Source: a virus
Length of the DNA: 46,409 nucleotides
Virus record (IMG/VR): IMGVR_UViG_3300020430_000027
Coordinates: 1-46,409 of that record
Strand: one strand, 5' to 3'
Positions 3,756 to 23,347 of the stretch are shown here, one piece after another (positions within the stretch are counted from its first letter, which is position 1; each line of letters begins with the position of its first letter). A model generated the notes under the pieces. That model did not search any database and had not been told where the DNA came from. It saw only the letters and a list, made by a program, of their open reading frames with translations. The position numbers and the translations under genes were made by a program.

Positions 3756-3946
3756 TGAAGACAGCGATCACGTTCATAGGATATCTTTTGGTGGCATTGG
3801 GCATCATGGCCATGGCCGGATCAGCAGGAGACTGTGATGGCAAGTGTGTGGAGAATGCCAACACCATGCTGGAGATGATGACGTTTGCAGGCATTGGATT
3901 GGCCATGTTCCTATTTGGATTCATGTTGATCCTGCAGAAAAATTAA
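3755..3946 (+). CDS. Small two-helix membrane protein
   Basis: A 63-residue protein with two hydrophobic segments (about residues 4-22 and 42-60) joined by a polar loop containing two Cys (GDCDGKC). The Cys pair could form a disulfide if the loop is periplasmic. It is translationally coupled to the preceding gene and shares its promoter. Function unknown; like the protein at 3280 it could affect the host membrane or lysis timing. Confidence 0.75.
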   Translation: MKTAITFIGYLLVALGIMAMAGSAGDCDGKCVENANTMLEMMTFAGIGLAMFLFGFMLILQKN

Positions 3947-12407: not shown

Positions 12408-14051
12408 TTATCGTCTTTTCGAATAGCGCCATTCGTGCATATTGTATAGTTTAACGTCAGTGCTTTGTATATATTCGCTGTGATTTTGTGTACGCACAAC
12501 ACCTCTGCCATGTACTATGTCGCCATCTCTATATCCAAAAGGCTTTTGAATAGTAACATCTATGTATTGTCCGTAGTCTATTCCTAAAGTAACAAACGTT
12601 ACATACTTACCATTTTTACCTTTGAAAACTCTGCCATTGGCAATAACTCCTGCAAACTCTACATGGTCCAACCACTTCTGTTGTACAAAACAATTTTTAA
12701 TAAATCCATTCTGCCACCAACCTGGTTTAGTTTCTATTCCTTGTCTGTGTGCTTCTGCTTGATACACCCAACTCCTATATGAACCTTGACAATGCTTTAG
12801 GTTAGCTCTCCAAAAGTCTTCTGGGTTGTGTGCTTTCTGATATGCCAATGCCCATATCAATCTACCCAAGTTTACTGCATGAGCTCTGCACAAACCAAAT
12901 CCAGATAGTTCTTGTAGTGCCGCCATGGCTTCTTTTTTCTTAGGATGATTGCCCAGCTTCTCAACAAACTCTAATATCTTTTCATCATTCTTTTTTGCAA
13001 AAGCTCTACGATACATATCTGCTTCATACATATCAACTCCTATAAAGTCTGATATGATATCTATTGCATCATCTTCAAACACCACAGAGTCCTGTACAGT
13101 TTCCTTTGACCAGTCTTGAAACATAGCGGCCTTTTGTCTACCACTCATAGCAACAGGACGTATCATTGCAGTAGCAAACACACAGTCATTAACTGACTTT
13201 GGTTGTATAGCTCTAAACAATCTTCGCATGGCTGGCGACTCTCCTTGTGTTACTCCTAACACATCACCTCTGCACAACAACGCACTTGTCTTTTCATCTT
13301 GTTCTGGATAGTGTTCTAATTTGGTTATTGAATCTATTTCTAACAGTTGACTCAAACCTCTGTTTGCTAATATGTCAACTTTTAAATGTTCCAAGTCTTC
13401 AATCTCGTATTTGTCTAATAATATTTGATTGTCTTGTGATATTAATGATTTAGGTAATTGCCTAGTAAACATAACGATGCCTCCACAATGTTTTGATATT
13501 GCTCTCTTCTTGCCTAACAGTTTTCTTTCAATGCGTTTTGCTTCTTTAACATCAATGCCTAAGTTTTCATATTTAAAGTTACGTGGTAAGTTTCCTGTAA
13601 CACCTAAACGTTTAGCCGCTTCACGTCTTGCACTCTTTTCTTTGAAAGTTACATAGTTGGAAAGCCTTGCAGACTTCCCAGGCCACTTTTTAAATATGCG
13701 TTCCATAACATCACCTTGTCTCCAATGTTCAAAGTCTATGTCAACGTCTGGTAAGTCATCACGTAATGGATTCATAAAACGTGCAACTGGTATGTTCCAT
13801 TTGATTGGATCAATATCAGTTATACCAAGCAGGTAACATATCAAGCTACTACCAGCTGACCCACGTGTCATGTGTGTAAGGTCCTCTGTGAGATCGATGA
13901 TATCACATATTTGTAAAAAGTAATCTGTAAATCTTTGATTTAGAATTAATTCAAATTCTTCTGCGAGACGTTGTTGATATATTTCACCGGGCGGCATTTG
14001 CCTTTTAAATCTATCCAACAGCCTTTGTATGTTGTCAATATCAGTTTGCAT
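12408..14051 (-). CDS. Compact DnaE-like (family C) polymerase without PHP domain
   Basis: A 547-residue protein resembling the catalytic core of DNA polymerase III alpha. Landmarks in order: RGSAGSSLICYLLGITDIDP (63-82); the palm motif PDVDIDF (101-107) with the two catalytic Asp; HCGGIVM (188-194); KVDILANRG (224-232) with the third Asp; a fingers-like segment GVTQGESPAMRRLF (267-280) then MIRPVA; GFGLCRAHAVNLG; and a C-terminal OB-like region (FAGVIANGRVFKGKNGKYVT). The roughly 280-residue PHP domain of bacterial DnaE is absent and the whole protein is half normal size. The start at 14051 was chosen because the upstream in-frame part runs through the tRNA; GGGGAT precedes this ATG and a late-like motif sits at 14090. 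It could be a lesion-bypass, repair or accessory polymerase; activity is inferred from motifs. Confidence 0.82.
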   Translation of the reverse strand: MQTDIDNIQRLLDRFKRQMPPGEIYQQRLAEEFELILNQRFTDYFLQICDIIDLTEDLTHMTRGSAGSSLICYLLGITDIDPIKWNIPVARFMNPLRDDLPDVDIDFEHWRQGDVMERIFKKWPGKSARLSNYVTFKEKSARREAAKRLGVTGNLPRNFKYENLGIDVKEAKRIERKLLGKKRAISKHCGGIVMFTRQLPKSLISQDNQILLDKYEIEDLEHLKVDILANRGLSQLLEIDSITKLEHYPEQDEKTSALLCRGDVLGVTQGESPAMRRLFRAIQPKSVNDCVFATAMIRPVAMSGRQKAAMFQDWSKETVQDSVVFEDDAIDIISDFIGVDMYEADMYRRAFAKKNDEKILEFVEKLGNHPKKKEAMAALQELSGFGLCRAHAVNLGRLIWALAYQKAHNPEDFWRANLKHCQGSYRSWVYQAEAHRQGIETKPGWWQNGFIKNCFVQQKWLDHVEFAGVIANGRVFKGKNGKYVTFVTLGIDYGQYIDVTIQKPFGYRDGDIVHGRGVVRTQNHSEYIQSTDVKLYNMHEWRYSKRR

Positions 14052-14089
14052 TGTTATCCCCTGTATATGCCTTGAGCCTATTATGTGTA

Positions 14090-14097
14090 TATTTATT
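14090..14097 (-). promoter_or_regulatory. T4-late-like motif
   Basis: Minus strand AATAAATA between the tRNA (ending at 14148) and the DnaE-like gene (ATG at 14051). It could give the polymerase gene a separate late transcript. Confidence 0.4.
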
Positions 14098-14147
14098 ATT
14101 TCAGTTTTTAGTAAATTATAAAAAGTGGCACATTTTGGACAACAAGT

Positions 14148-14234
14148 TGGCTCTGGGGGAAGGAATCGAACCTCCAAGGCACTAGATGCCACACGAGAAA
14201 CAATCGTGCGTGTTTACCGTTTCACCACCCCAGA
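14148..14234 (-). tRNA. Unusual class II tRNA with GUU (Asn) anticodon
   Basis: An 87-nt tRNA with encoded CCA. Acceptor TCTGGGG/CCCCAGA pairs over all 7 bp; discriminator is G. D arm GTG AAACGGTAAA CAC; anticodon stem CACGA/TCGTG with 7-nt loop TTGTTTC, giving anticodon GTT; long variable arm with stem GGCA/TGCC; T arm GGAGG TTCGATT CCTTC. The D arm, variable arm and T arm look like a tRNA-Leu (class II) body. The terminal pair U1-A72, discriminator G73 and GUU anticodon are the bacterial tRNA-Asn set. Position 37 is T rather than a purine, which is odd. It lies 7 nt after the stop codon of the AsnRS-like gene on the same strand and is probably cotranscribed. Structure is clear; decoding and charging are inferred. 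Confidence 0.88.
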
Positions 14235-14241
14235 TTAAACT

Positions 14242-15072
14242 TTAGTCTTTCCAGTGTATGTCTAATGCTGATATCATACGTGTCATACCTATACCGCCAC
14301 CAACTCTCGGAAAGAAATCAAACTCTAAAAACTTTTCAAGTTCTGCTTCTACACGTTCTTTACTAAACAGTTTGTAAAGTAGTTTGCTATATTCTCCGTC
14401 AGTAATGCTATGGAAAGTATCACGCATCATTTGTACATCGCAAGATCGTTCTGCTGATCCTATTGTTTCCATACCGCCTAGTATCACGTCTATCTTCTTT
14501 GCAGTTTTGCCATCATCATTTCTACTCATGTTCCAAAACGGTGATGTCATTTCAGGAAAGTCAGTAATCATTGTTGTACCAAATTCTTTATGCATCTTAG
14601 TTTCTTCTTCAGCAGTCATTTCATAGTCTTCAGCAAGTCCATAATGTTGTTGCCATTCAGCATAAGTTTTTTCAGTAGGCATCTTGAATCCCATGTGTTG
14701 GCACAGTTCATATTCCATTTTCTTAAGATCATCTATGTCACCTGGCATCTCAAATTCAAACATAGGAAATATAATATCATGTCTACCTGGTATTGCATTT
14801 GGCTCTTGTCTATAGGAAGTGGAGACACAAAAAAAGCCCTTTGAATCGGGCTTGGAAAGTAATTCGTGTTCTAACCACATTTGGCCTGTCTGGGGCAAGG
14901 GCCATACCTGGCCTGCGTAATTGTATGTAGCTACATTAAATGGATCTTCACAAGCCGCTAGTATCGATAATCTATTCTGGGTATGGACTTCTTGAAATCC
15001 TTTATCCAAAAAAAATGACCTTAATAGGCCAACGGAGTGTGTAAACTTAGAGGGGTTAATCAGTTGTGTCAT
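14242..15072 (-). CDS. AsnRS-like class II synthetase catalytic core
   Basis: A 276-residue protein with the class IIb (Asp/Asn/Lys) synthetase catalytic domain. Motif 1 lies in residues 10-35 (VGLLRSFFLDKGFQEV). LPQTGQMWLEHEL (59-71) resembles the AsnRS element SGQL..E rather than AspRS SPQ. Motif 2 is YRQE (87-90) with RHDIIFPMFEFE (97-108). DVILGGMETIGSAERS (195-210) matches the ATP/amino-acid site. Motif 3 is GGGIGMTR (258-265) with its Arg. The N-terminal OB-fold anticodon-binding domain of AsnRS (about 110 residues) is absent; bacterial AsnRS is about 466 residues. It may be a minimal AsnRS acting with the adjacent tRNA, or an asparagine synthetase of the AsnRS-derived archaeal type. 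Start overlaps the preceding gene (ATGA). Family assignment firm, substrate inferred. Confidence 0.85.
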   Translation of the reverse strand: MTQLINPSKFTHSVGLLRSFFLDKGFQEVHTQNRLSILAACEDPFNVATYNYAGQVWPLPQTGQMWLEHELLSKPDSKGFFCVSTSYRQEPNAIPGRHDIIFPMFEFEMPGDIDDLKKMEYELCQHMGFKMPTEKTYAEWQQHYGLAEDYEMTAEEETKMHKEFGTTMITDFPEMTSPFWNMSRNDDGKTAKKIDVILGGMETIGSAERSCDVQMMRDTFHSITDGEYSKLLYKLFSKERVEAELEKFLEFDFFPRVGGGIGMTRMISALDIHWKD

Positions 15073-16317: not shown

Positions 16318-17751
16318 TTAATCCTCCTCTGATTCTAAGTTTTGTAAAAATGATCTTAGTTTAGTTGAATCTGTTTCAGCCTTGATTGGCTTAACTATTT
16401 CACCTTGATTTGGTTCCTTGGGTGTATCAGGCTCTTTGTCTGTTGTTACACTTGTTCTTTTTAAGTTATCAAATATCGTTGACTTACGTTTGTCAAATTC
16501 TTTGTAGTCATCATCTTCAGCCAAGTCTCTTATACGCAAACTATCTATATCAAATTCTAAATCTATCTTTGCACCAACACCACTAGAACTTCTAGTTTTC
16601 ATTAGCTGTATTTGATATCTGCCACGTTCTCTCATTGCTCTACTTGTAAAGATACCAATCACGTTATCAGCAGTTTGTATCTTACTTAATCCACCTGCAA
16701 TATGCGAATGATCAAATTCTATTTCTTCAACACTAGCTCTGTTCAACTGCGATGCAGTTACAAATATAATTTGTAGTTCCATTGCCAAGTTTCTAAGTTC
16801 TTCAGATACAAATTTATCTTTTACAAACAAATCACTTGGACTTACTTTTTTGCTCAACGGCATCATCAAATCTAAATAGTCAACTAGTATTACATCAATC
16901 TTCCTACCAGTTTTGATTTCATATTCTTTTATAAAACTTCTAATATCATTTGCTGTCTTACCACTTGGCATATACTTAATCTGGAAAGCACCAGACTTCT
17001 TACCAACTAGTTTAACTTTCATTTCAACGCCATCTAAATCTCTAAATATTTCTCTGCTTGGAATATCTGTCATCATACTATCTAATCTCATTGCAACTAA
17101 ATTTTCACTTAATTCAAATGTTAGATACACAACATTCATTCCGTTGAGTGCCCAGTTTACACCTAAGTTTGCAAGAAACAAAGACTTACCTGCACCACTA
17201 CCACCTGCAAATATATTCAACTCACCTTTGTTGAATCCACCAAATAGTTTCTTATCTAAACTTTCCCAACCTGTGCTTACTTGTCCATTGTTGTCTTTCA
17301 AAGACATAAGTCTACCTTTAGGATCTTTAAAGTAATCAATACCAAGATCTTTTTGTAATCCTATCTGTACTGCGTCTTTGATCTTTACTTCAACTGGACC
17401 ATATTCACCTTTTTCAAGCAAGTCAGCACTTTCAAGTATTGCACGTTCTAGTGCTTTGTGTCTACTGAAAGTTTCAAAGTCGCTCAACAACCAATCATAG
17501 TGTTGTTCATTTAGTCCTGTTGGAATAGTTAGTTTTACTTGTGGGCTATTACTGTTTACAATCTGTTCTGTAGGAAGTGTGTTGTGTTCAGCAACAAAAT
17601 TTTTTACAAACTCTGCCGCTGGCTTTAGTTTACGATCAAAACTTTCTGGATCAAATATTGCTTGGCAACGCACAAACGTTTGAGCATCACTCAACATGAT
17701 CTCAAGATAAGTTTTCTGTATTTCGAATCCGTAATCTGTATTTTGTTTCAT
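16318..17751 (-). CDS. gp41: Replicative DNA helicase, gp41/DnaB family
   Basis: A 477-residue protein, essentially the length of T4 gp41 (475). The N-terminal 150 residues form the helical collar region. The RecA-like domain carries Walker A GGSGAGKS (183-190), a Walker B strand DVILVDYLDLM, the arginine-rich QIQLMKTRSSSG region and a DnaB-type VTASQLNRAS motif. An acidic/Ser-Thr-rich tail (KEPDTPKEPNQGE) ends it. It unwinds DNA at the phage replication fork as a hexamer and works with the primase encoded 3 kb upstream (20583-21590). The start overlaps the preceding stop (TAATG) and lacks an obvious ribosome site, so translation may depend on coupling. Confidence 0.95.
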   Translation of the reverse strand: MKQNTDYGFEIQKTYLEIMLSDAQTFVRCQAIFDPESFDRKLKPAAEFVKNFVAEHNTLPTEQIVNSNSPQVKLTIPTGLNEQHYDWLLSDFETFSRHKALERAILESADLLEKGEYGPVEVKIKDAVQIGLQKDLGIDYFKDPKGRLMSLKDNNGQVSTGWESLDKKLFGGFNKGELNIFAGGSGAGKSLFLANLGVNWALNGMNVVYLTFELSENLVAMRLDSMMTDIPSREIFRDLDGVEMKVKLVGKKSGAFQIKYMPSGKTANDIRSFIKEYEIKTGRKIDVILVDYLDLMMPLSKKVSPSDLFVKDKFVSEELRNLAMELQIIFVTASQLNRASVEEIEFDHSHIAGGLSKIQTADNVIGIFTSRAMRERGRYQIQLMKTRSSSGVGAKIDLEFDIDSLRIRDLAEDDDYKEFDKRKSTIFDNLKRTSVTTDKEPDTPKEPNQGEIVKPIKAETDSTKLRSFLQNLESEED

Positions 17752-18755
17752 TATTTTTTATTATACCACACTTGCTCATCAAAGTCAATATGCCTATTTT
17801 CCAAAGCCAAAACTGAACCAATGCAACTGCCTGGATCACCTGGATTTTTTGGCACATAAACGTAATTCCAATATTTTCTGATTTTCTTCACTGCATCTCT
17901 ATTTAACGCACAACCGCCTGTCAAGATTAAATTACGACTTGGTAAGTTTTTCATGCACCAATCATTATTTGATTTTAAAATTGTTTCAAATACAAATTGT
18001 GTTGCATTCGCTAACCTTTTCATATCTTGTTCTGTTGTAAGGTCTGGCTTGTACCAATCGCAACCTTTATGTAAGTTTACCTTAAACTTTACGCCTGGCT
18101 TTGATCCATCGAGTGGTTTAGCAATAAAGGTTTCAATCATGTCATTGATAAGATGTAAGTTTTCATGTGTAGCAATATCCATACCCATCTCACTTACTTT
18201 GTATTCATCTCTATTTGCTTTCAATCCTAATCGTTGTGTCATTGCACTATAGAACAAGCCAACACTATGTGGATACTTTCCTGAATACACTTGCTTTAGT
18301 CCTGCACCAGGTACGTATGAATCACCTGTCCATATAGTAAACGTTTCAAACTCACCTATTGAATCCAAGCACATGATTGTTGCATTAGTTAATCCGCTAG
18401 TGAAAAAACCATAAGCCGCATGAGCTCTATGATGTTGCACATACTCAATAGGAGCATTTATGTTCCACTTGCTTAGATATTTTTTGATATTGTTTTCACT
18501 TGCTAACCAACCTTGTCCTGCCTTCAATTGACGCAACGTTTTAAGGAAAGGTTTTTCATACCAAACAACTTTGTCTGGCACTTGCAATCTCCAACCGCTG
18601 GCTTCTTTAGCGGCGTTCACAAGGTCTGGATTCAAATGGGGATCGTGTTCTATCTTAGAGAAGTCTTTCGCCAAAGCCGCCCATATCAGTTTTCCATCTT
18701 TAAAAACTGCTATACTGGCATCATGACTGTTACCAACAATACCCCAAACTATCAC
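17751..18755 (-). CDS. NodU/CmcH-type carbamoyltransferase, N-terminal domain
   Basis: A 334-residue protein with a GTG start and a strong ribosome site (GAGGAG). It resembles the N-terminal, Kae1-like half of the NodU/CmcH/TobZ carbamoyltransferases: [16 protein letters not shown] near the start, [15 protein letters not shown] with the metal-binding His pair (about residues 107-118), [10 protein letters not shown], and [15 protein letters not shown] near the end. Full-length enzymes have about 550-600 residues with a C-terminal carbamoyl-phosphate domain that is missing here. Related proteins occur in T4-like marine phages. Such enzymes carbamoylate hydroxyl groups of sugars or nucleoside-like substrates; a role in modifying phage DNA or glycans is possible but unproven. 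Confidence 0.83.
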
Positions 18756-19345
18756 TTACGTTTCTCCTCGATCCTATCTGCAAGACCATATGCTATTGTT
18801 TCTTCTGCACTCATAAAGTAATCACGATCCATATCTTTCATGAAGTCGTCATAAGTTTTACCTGCTGTATTGTGCTTTACATATAGCTCTGTTAATTTTT
18901 CTTTTAGATATTGAATCTCTTTGTAACGTATTTCAATATCACTTGCCATACCTTTTGCACCACCACTTGGTTGATGTATCATTGTACGACTGTTTGGCAA
19001 TAATATTCTTTTGCCAGGAGCACCTGCTTGAGCAAGAAATGAACCCATTGAACAAGCCTGTCCTAATACTATTGTGCTGACATCACACTTGATGTATTGC
19101 ATAGTATCGTATATGCTCATTCCACTAGTTATTACTCCACCTGGACTATTGATATAAAAATTTATATCCTTCTCAGGGTTTTCACTTTCCAAGAAAAGCA
19201 TTTGTGCAACTACAACGTTTGCACTATGATCTTCAACAGGACCATTCAACATTACAATTCTATCCTTCAATAGTCTACTGTAAATGTCGTAGGCTCTTTC
19301 TCCTTTGTTGGTAGACTCAACTACCATTGGTATAAGTGTACTCAT
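18752..19345 (-). CDS. clpP: ClpP-family serine protease
   Basis: A 197-residue ClpP, of normal length. The start at 19345 follows AAAGGAA; in-frame sequence upstream belongs to the preceding gene. Signature elements: INSPGG (65-70), catalytic Ser99 in GQACSMGSF, His124 in TMIHQPSGG, Asp175 in [10 protein letters not shown]. The full triad is intact. Cys replaces the usual Ala before the Ser, and Ser replaces Ala in GSF. ClpP forms a 14-subunit chamber that degrades proteins delivered by ClpX/ClpA, or processes capsid proteins in some phages. No Clp ATPase is encoded here, so it would use a host unfoldase or act alone. Overlaps the carbamoyltransferase start by 4 nt. Confidence 0.93.
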
Positions 19346-19581
19346 TATATTCCTTTCATTTTTTTCCAACCAGTGTGTAAGATATAAAACCATACACCGT
19401 TTATACTAGGCTCAACAAGTGCTACTGCACCAGCCTCCCATAAACTTGCACCTGTCAAAACTGTAACCACTGACATAGCAATTATGATATGTCCAAGGGT
19501 ATATATTAAAGCAAGTGACAAACTTGAACCAGTTAGAATTCTGCGAAATGCATTTTGCATTCCTTCTGTGAACTCAGTCAT
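19345..19581 (-). CDS. Small membrane protein (DUF2061-like)
   Basis: A 78-residue protein with two hydrophobic segments (about residues 20-42 and 47-68). The layout resembles DUF2061-type membrane proteins: an N-terminal 'R.....s.s..li...t...I', then 'a...a..ep..n...yy.H...W'. The C-terminal end HTGWKKMKG matches that 'H..W' ending. GGAGAG precedes the start. Its last base overlaps the clpP ATG. Function unknown. Confidence 0.7.
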
Positions 19582-22811: not shown

Positions 22812-22947
22812 GTGGCCCTTCCTTTGGTTTTTTATCCTCTAATTCTTTCTTGTAGTTTTTTATTGCAACAAGATAAGCTATAAAAAAGCCAACCACTGTC
22901 ACACCCATTCCTATAAAAAAGAATAGTATACCGTGTTCAAAGTCCAT
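22798..22947 (-). CDS. Small single-helix membrane protein
   Basis: A 49-residue protein (MDFEHGILFFFIGMGVTVVG...) with one strong membrane helix (about residues 6-28) and a charged Lys/Glu-rich tail. It overlaps the end of sufE by 11 nt and the convergent plus-strand gene by 14 nt. Its composition is typical of tiny phage membrane proteins. Function unknown. Confidence 0.6.
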   Translation of the reverse strand: MDFEHGILFFFIGMGVTVVGFFIAYLVAIKNYKKELEDKKPKEGPLTFL

Positions 22948-23347
22948 AAGTTTTTGCTATTGCAATCATTCTTTCTACTAGACTACCAAAGCCTACTTGC
23001 CTTTGCATAGTAAGTAATTGTTTTATACCCAAGCCCTCAAAACTCTCTAATGTTAATTCTGCTATTGCACTTCGATGTTCACCATTAAGCAAATCAACTA
23101 AAACTTTTGCAGTTCCTTTTGTTATCCAAGCATCTGCATCGTGCCTATATGACATGGTTCCGTCTTCATTCATTTCTCCTACTACCCAAAGATTACTTGC
23201 ACAACCTCTAATTTTGTTTTCATCTATCTTCTCGTTATCTGGCAACGGTTCTACTTCCCTTGCAATATCAATTAGGTATTGCAATCGGTCATGTCCTTCT
23301 AATGGAGCCATTTCTTCTCCACGTGCTTTTATTTTGTCTATTATCAT
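22937..23347 (-). CDS. sufE: SufE-like sulfur-transfer protein
   Basis: A 136-residue protein matching SufE/CsdE. The key active-site loop KIRGCASNLWV carries Cys49, the residue that accepts persulfide sulfur from the SufS desulfurase. The remaining helices (AKVLVDLLNGEH, LTLESFEGLGI, MQRQVGFGSLVERM) also fit the family; length is normal (about 138). SufE stimulates Fe-S cluster assembly under oxidative or iron stress. No sufS or sufBCD is in the window, so it would work with the host system. Overlaps the neighbouring gene start by 4 nt. Family is firm; benefit to the phage is inferred. Confidence 0.9.
   Translation of the reverse strand: MIIDKIKARGEEMAPLEGHDRLQYLIDIAREVEPLPDNEKIDENKIRGCASNLWVVGEMNEDGTMSYRHDADAWITKGTAKVLVDLLNGEHRSAIAELTLESFEGLGIKQLLTMQRQVGFGSLVERMIAIAKTYGL

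Follow-up and report, generated by a model that had tools for sequence, protein, structure and literature searches.

A small gene pair recurs in hundreds of marine bacterial viruses: an enzyme resembling the catalytic core of asparaginyl-tRNA synthetase (AsnRS) and a tRNA, which are almost always found together. The association holds when it is tested in both directions, which supports a conserved viral module with two evolutionarily coupled members. The tRNA keeps the bacterial Asn/Asp identity marks read by charging enzymes (G34-U35-U/C36 and G73) as well as the GatCAB mark (U1-A72), and has lost those normally needed for decoding. It therefore probably has a use other than ordinary protein making. 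We describe the pair for one viral stretch of 46,409 nucleotides (IMG/VR record IMGVR_UViG_3300020430_000027, hereafter the window; Table 1) and for its viral and cellular relatives.

Table 1. Location of the enzyme gene, the partner tRNA and parts of the tRNA in the window
Feature	Position	Strand	Evidence or remark
AsnRS-like class IIb catalytic core, 276 aa, without anticodon-binding domain	14242..15072	−	phrog_29758, Pfam, AlphaFold2 model
Spacer from stop codon to mature tRNA 5' end, 7 nt	14235..14241	−	
Partner tRNA, 87 nt with CCA, anticodon GUU	14148..14234	−	ARAGORN, Rfam, family comparison
Anticodon, positions 34-36, GUU	14199..14201	−	flanked by U33 (14202) and an unusual U37 (14198)
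tRNA variable region, 16 nt, small stem GGCA/UGCC	14176..14191	−	

The enzyme gene starts with ATG and has 276 codons. Residues 15-269 of its product match the Pfam family tRNA-synt_2 (E=9.5e-18), and the protein belongs with phrog_29758 (E=1.4e-128), a PHROG of unknown function. The AlphaFold2 model (pLDDT 91.8) consists of a single class IIb core; the OB domain is absent, as both the predicted model and the profile matches span the core only. The best structural matches are AsnRS enzymes (Z 26-28; for 8h53, Z 27.6 over 251 residues at 2.5 Å), followed by AspRS, while the archaeal asparagine synthetase reaches a Z of about 23.5. A preliminary description made from the letters of the window had proposed just such a 276-residue AsnRS-like core without an OB domain, followed after 7 nt on the same strand by a tRNA with GUU, U1-A72 and G73; Pfam, the model and the structural matches bear out the former, ARAGORN and Rfam the latter.

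Class IIb motifs 1-3 are present, and the family shows little or no variation in motif 2 (R88-x-E90...R97-H98), the GSAER209 element and motif 3 (R265). E106 aligns with what we take to be the AsnRS Glu at a site where AspRS has Asp, and the lysine of the AspRS QSPQxxK element is missing; both assignments come from a sequence alignment read against established AsnRS and AspRS structures rather than from a superposition. Taken by its sequence, the pocket would be AsnRS-like. With 28.8 bits, the protein stays far below the cut-off of the AsnS family TIGR00457 (342.6 bits), and it also scores far below the AspS and LysS cut-offs. It thus differs from AsnRS in this score, in its short length without the N-terminal OB domain and in having a fixed partner tRNA. 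The viral enzymes are strongly acidic, with a median of -20 per 265 aa as compared with about -1 for other ORFs of the window. Such acidity is odd for a tRNA binder and calls for caution.

Several other genes could be noted around the module. A DNA polymerase III alpha-like ORF lies on the minus strand at 12408-14192, with matches to the NTPase and finger domains only. As its listed GTG start falls within the tRNA gene, translation probably begins near 14051 instead. The same phage region carries, also on the minus strand, a carbamoyltransferase N-terminal domain on its own (17751-18755) and homologs of ClpP (18752-19393) and SufE (22937-23347). In close relatives, permuted tmRNA genes of the alphaproteobacterial type lie near the module (L006, 1072-1437; L009, 1068-1432; L072, 2570-2933; L074, 1060-1390), a hint at alphaproteobacterial hosts.

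Four protein scans of IMG/VR and a phage collection yielded 317 viral loci with a readable enzyme gene, 305 of them with at least 120 nt of downstream sequence. A tRNA on the same strand and within 330 nt directly follows the enzyme gene in 270 of these 305 loci, a number that includes one unrelated tRNA-Leu, while a few of the remaining loci hold forms of the tRNA missed by the script. The preliminary description had suggested looking for the same pair in the same order among other phages, and this is where it was found. The tRNA usually begins 4-11 nt past the stop codon and sometimes overlaps it; both genes are probably expressed from the same transcript. In the reverse search, which used a DNA pattern for the tRNA alone, the enzyme gene lay directly upstream in all 73 usable copies. 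Besides the tRNA, there are no conserved neighbours (the most frequent other gene occurs in 13 of 90 non-redundant loci), and PADLOC gave no match to a known defence family.

About 10% of the viral enzyme copies have no partner tRNA, and some of these phages have a canonical tRNA-Asn instead, for example the 328-kb record of L329. At locus L091, only two acceptor-stem halves are left just downstream of the gene, at about positions 3860-3890 of that locus (TCCGGGGTCCCCCGGAGCCA), as if the interior of the tRNA had been deleted. The Prochlorococcus phages P-SSM2, P-SSM5 and P-SSM7 have the same pair, with enzymes of the same family (T4-GC 194, 65% identity) and a tRNA-Asn in the same arrangement. 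In the portion of Sullivan et al. 2010 considered here, the T4-GC 194 gene is listed only as 'tRNA ligase' (PMC3037559); enzyme and tRNA appear there as separate genes, and that portion mentions neither the pairing nor the unusual tRNA. A literature search found no paper describing the pair or an AsnRS-like pyrimidine enzyme, an absence that is weak evidence.

ARAGORN calls the window tRNA as Asn(GTT), and it scores 48.7 bits with the Rfam tRNA model. It has a 7-bp acceptor stem, an encoded CCA, a D stem of 3 bp and a tRNA-Leu-like body. Loop positions 32-38 read UUGUUUC, which puts a U at position 37, a feature unmentioned in the preliminary description. Bacterial tRNA-Asn has A37, a short class I variable loop and a four-pair D stem. 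The window tRNA fails on these three features and keeps the GUU anticodon, G73 and U1-A72. Its bare fold energy is unremarkable (z -1.5), but 18 of the 30 cloverleaf pairs show compensatory changes among 23 relatives, which supports the fold.

The same division runs through the family, for which we compared about 174 distinct partner tRNAs, with GTT not required when scanning for the anticodon. Of these, 170 have the anticodon GUU and 3 have GUC; G73 is universal, and U1-A72 is found in all but one, whereas each of the pairs 2-71 to 7-66 occurs as several pair types. Position 37 is a pyrimidine in about 85% (143 U, 4 C, 17 A, 9 G), and U33 is lost in about 20% (139 U, 17 A, 15 C, 2 G). These losses of U33 and purine 37 are seen in several enzyme clades, while every other tRNA in these loci retains U33 and a purine at position 37. 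Since U33 and purine 37 are not kept, an ordinary Asn-decoding role is doubtful. In bacteria, the anticodon GUU and G73 form a transplantable Asn identity set (PMC9976931); C36 versus U36 separates Asp from Asn, and U1-A72 marks Asp-tRNA for amidation (PMC9976931; PMC4206432).

The length of the variable region varies between 5 and 39 nt. The long arm had been proposed as a recognition element for an enzyme without an anticodon domain; this spread and the existence of short-arm clades make it an unlikely identity element. In many loci (L009, L034, L044, L070 and others) the region measures 28-39 nt, and the type of 28-31 nt folds into a stem that reaches 10 bp and is capped by a loop containing GCAA, which is unusually long for a tRNA. 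Calls of Asp, Glu, Ile or Gly made by ARAGORN on long-arm versions proved to be misplaced anticodon loops of the same tRNA. A small viral clade (L358, L361, L371) has partner tRNAs with GUC, G37 (the Asp type) and 27-nt variable regions. When the family is turned into a covariance model, the usual best match among non-members is a tRNA-Leu.

Relatives of the enzyme at 50-65% identity were found in a scan of bacterial and archaeal genomes, namely in Patescibacteria, Rickettsiales-type alphaproteobacteria, Pasteurella atlantica, gammaproteobacteria, Dependentiae and DPANN archaea. Phage-like contigs excepted, the partner tRNA was not found beside these homologs. Nor was it found elsewhere in 20 of the cellular genomes: the best match to the model was a tRNA-Leu in 18, a tRNA-Thr in one and a sequence with no tRNA call in the other. 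The preliminary description had held that homologs regularly lacking the tRNA would speak against a pair; the cellular homologs and about a tenth of the viral copies do lack it, and the rest of the viral copies keep it. In a maximum-likelihood tree, built by a quick method and with some weak forks, the viral sequences form essentially one group inside the cellular diversity, next to copies from P. atlantica and Rhodospirillaceae. Seventy-odd positions are conserved to at least 97% in both the viral and the cellular set, and the motif 2 region shows no more variation in the cellular homologs without a tRNA than in the viral enzymes. Conservation specific to viruses is found mainly in an N-terminal MTxLIxP.

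The nearest cellular copies stand in operons with pyrF, pyrE-like and pyrD genes (neighbours whose names lack confirmation by a family search were named by our own reading of the sequence). Homologs head or adjoin such pyrF/pyrE/pyrD operons at L098, L103, L111, L114, L122, L144, L151, L159, L163 and L166. OMP decarboxylase was detected in 16 and dihydroorotate dehydrogenase in 12 of the 20 genomes. The family cut-off was passed by aspartate carbamoyltransferase in only 3, by dihydroorotase in 2 and by carbamoyl-phosphate synthetase in 2, absences that are suggestive only, as many of these genomes are MAGs of unstated completeness. Because several homologs stand at the head of minimal pyrD-E-F operons in genomes where carB, pyrB and pyrC are not recognisable, the ancestral job of the family may be something other than tRNA charging, and the gene contexts are suggestive of a possible novel entry step into pyrimidine synthesis.

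The explanation that we favour, tentatively and at somewhat less than an even chance, is that the module combines an AsnRS-derived catalytic core with a private tRNA that is charged by the host, carries Asn or Asp and is used mainly outside decoding. It builds on the pairing, the conservation pattern, the fold and the catalytic residues, and from these we infer the charging enzyme, the amino acid, the product and the role outside translation. The tRNA would receive either Asn or Asp, the latter being amidated afterwards, and the charging would be done wholly or partly by the host AsnRS or a non-discriminating AspRS (with GatCAB). Host charging seems probable because the anticodon is conserved even though the phage enzyme cannot read it. 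Once charged, the tRNA would deliver its amino acid to the enzyme encoded next to it, as a dedicated carrier and not a bulk decoder, and that enzyme would act on the Asn end with ATP. A carrier outside decoding is favoured because a conserved GUY can be explained only by the ribosome or by enzymes that read the anticodon, and use on the ribosome should have preserved U33 and purine 37 as well. Against this reading stands the fact that decoding, too, would conserve GUU. The acidity of the viral enzymes also speaks against it, as do the cellular homologs, which share the catalytic residues without the tRNA, and the viral copies lacking it, all of which implies that the reaction may not need a tRNA.

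The chief rival, which we consider rather unlikely, is that the OB-less enzyme and its tRNA serve translation as a private AsnRS/tRNA pair, which has evolved under host defences that cut tRNAs. The enzyme would ignore the anticodon loop, so that positions 33, 37 and 38 could change and evade anticodon nucleases while GUU still decodes Asn; it has been proposed that altered anticodon loops let phage tRNAs escape VapC, PrrC and nucleases like colicin E5 (PMC10264068). The conserved GUU, the constant company of the enzyme, its AsnRS-like pocket and an anticodon loop that departs from the expected tRNA of this type would all fit. However, decoding should suffer badly from a pyrimidine at 37 and from the lack of U33. 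Position 37 has not diversified but is a constant U in most versions, the GUC clade would read Asp codons, the remaining tRNAs in these loci are free of such changes, and the tRNA is missing from the cellular homologs. Of the earlier proposal that the phage has its own Asn charging system, the private coupled pair, the pocket and the Asn-type marks of the tRNA thus remain, and ordinary decoding is the part that is in doubt.

It is unlikely, in our estimate, that the enzyme is a small-molecule ligase independent of tRNA, similar to asparagine synthetase or working in the pyrimidine pathway, with the tRNA as a regulator, decoy or passenger. The cellular homologs point this way, as they have the same catalytic residues and head pyrD/E/F operons in genomes without recognisable CarB, PyrB and PyrC, and so do the nesting of the viral clade among cellular ones and the phages that have the enzyme without the tRNA. 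In a passenger tRNA, however, U1-A72, G73 and GUY would not persist through about 174 versions, nor would such a tRNA occur only with the enzyme. The archaeal asparagine synthetase (AS-AR; PDB 3p8t, 1nnh) is likewise a stand-alone core of similar length, but it matches less well in the family profile search (0.0037 versus 4.6e-13 for AsnRS) and the phage family has a conserved tRNA partner. The suggestion of an archaeal-type asparagine synthetase beside an unrelated tRNA is weakened by the same two observations.

A combined scenario, in which the family is an unrecognised metabolic ligase, strikes us as decidedly unlikely. The cellular enzyme would take over the entry into pyrimidine synthesis from carbamoyl-phosphate synthetase, aspartate carbamoyltransferase and dihydroorotase, for example by closing Asn and bicarbonate into dihydroorotate with ATP, a reaction of our own conjecture. 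Phages would have acquired this enzyme and paired it with a private Asn-tRNA that does not decode and serves as a protected supply of the amino acid.

Least probable is that Asn is loaded onto the tRNA by the phage enzyme without a host synthetase, through U1-A72, G73 and the body, for a non-ribosomal reaction, the anticodon being retained only by history or residual decoding: the obligate pairing and the invariant 1-72 pair and G73 alongside an invariant motif 2 region, with which class IIb enzymes touch the acceptor end, would suit it, but it leaves an invariant G34-U35 amid drifting neighbours unexplained, and motif 2 is just as invariant where there is no tRNA.

Because the defining features of AsnRS and of tRNA-Asn were each checked and failed, we assign the pair to neither group; its sequences suggest a variation on aaRS-derived enzymes and specialised tRNAs. 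PylRS/tRNA-Pyl and other orthogonal pairs resemble it in that a dedicated synthetase-like enzyme is encoded with a dedicated unusual tRNA, but those pairs decode, whereas the phage tRNA has lost decoding marks and its charging is only putative. A tRNA or an aaRS-like enzyme also works outside the ribosome in the case of Staphylococcus tRNA-Gly, AcmF and SbzA, which are cellular, concern other amino acids and are not known to have a tRNA co-encoded with an aaRS-core enzyme. The Staphylococcus tRNA-Gly is a specialised non-proteinogenic tRNA (PMC4810233), and AcmF and SbzA are aaRS-like users of aminoacyl-tRNA (PMC12945691).

If the favoured explanation is true, marine viruses contain a natural, widespread and very compact pair of an aaRS core and a tRNA, in which tRNA evolution separates the marks for charging from those for decoding. 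Such a pair would be useful for the engineering of orthogonal pairs and for understanding the use of tRNAs outside translation. The cellular branch of the family would point to a gap in known pyrimidine synthesis.
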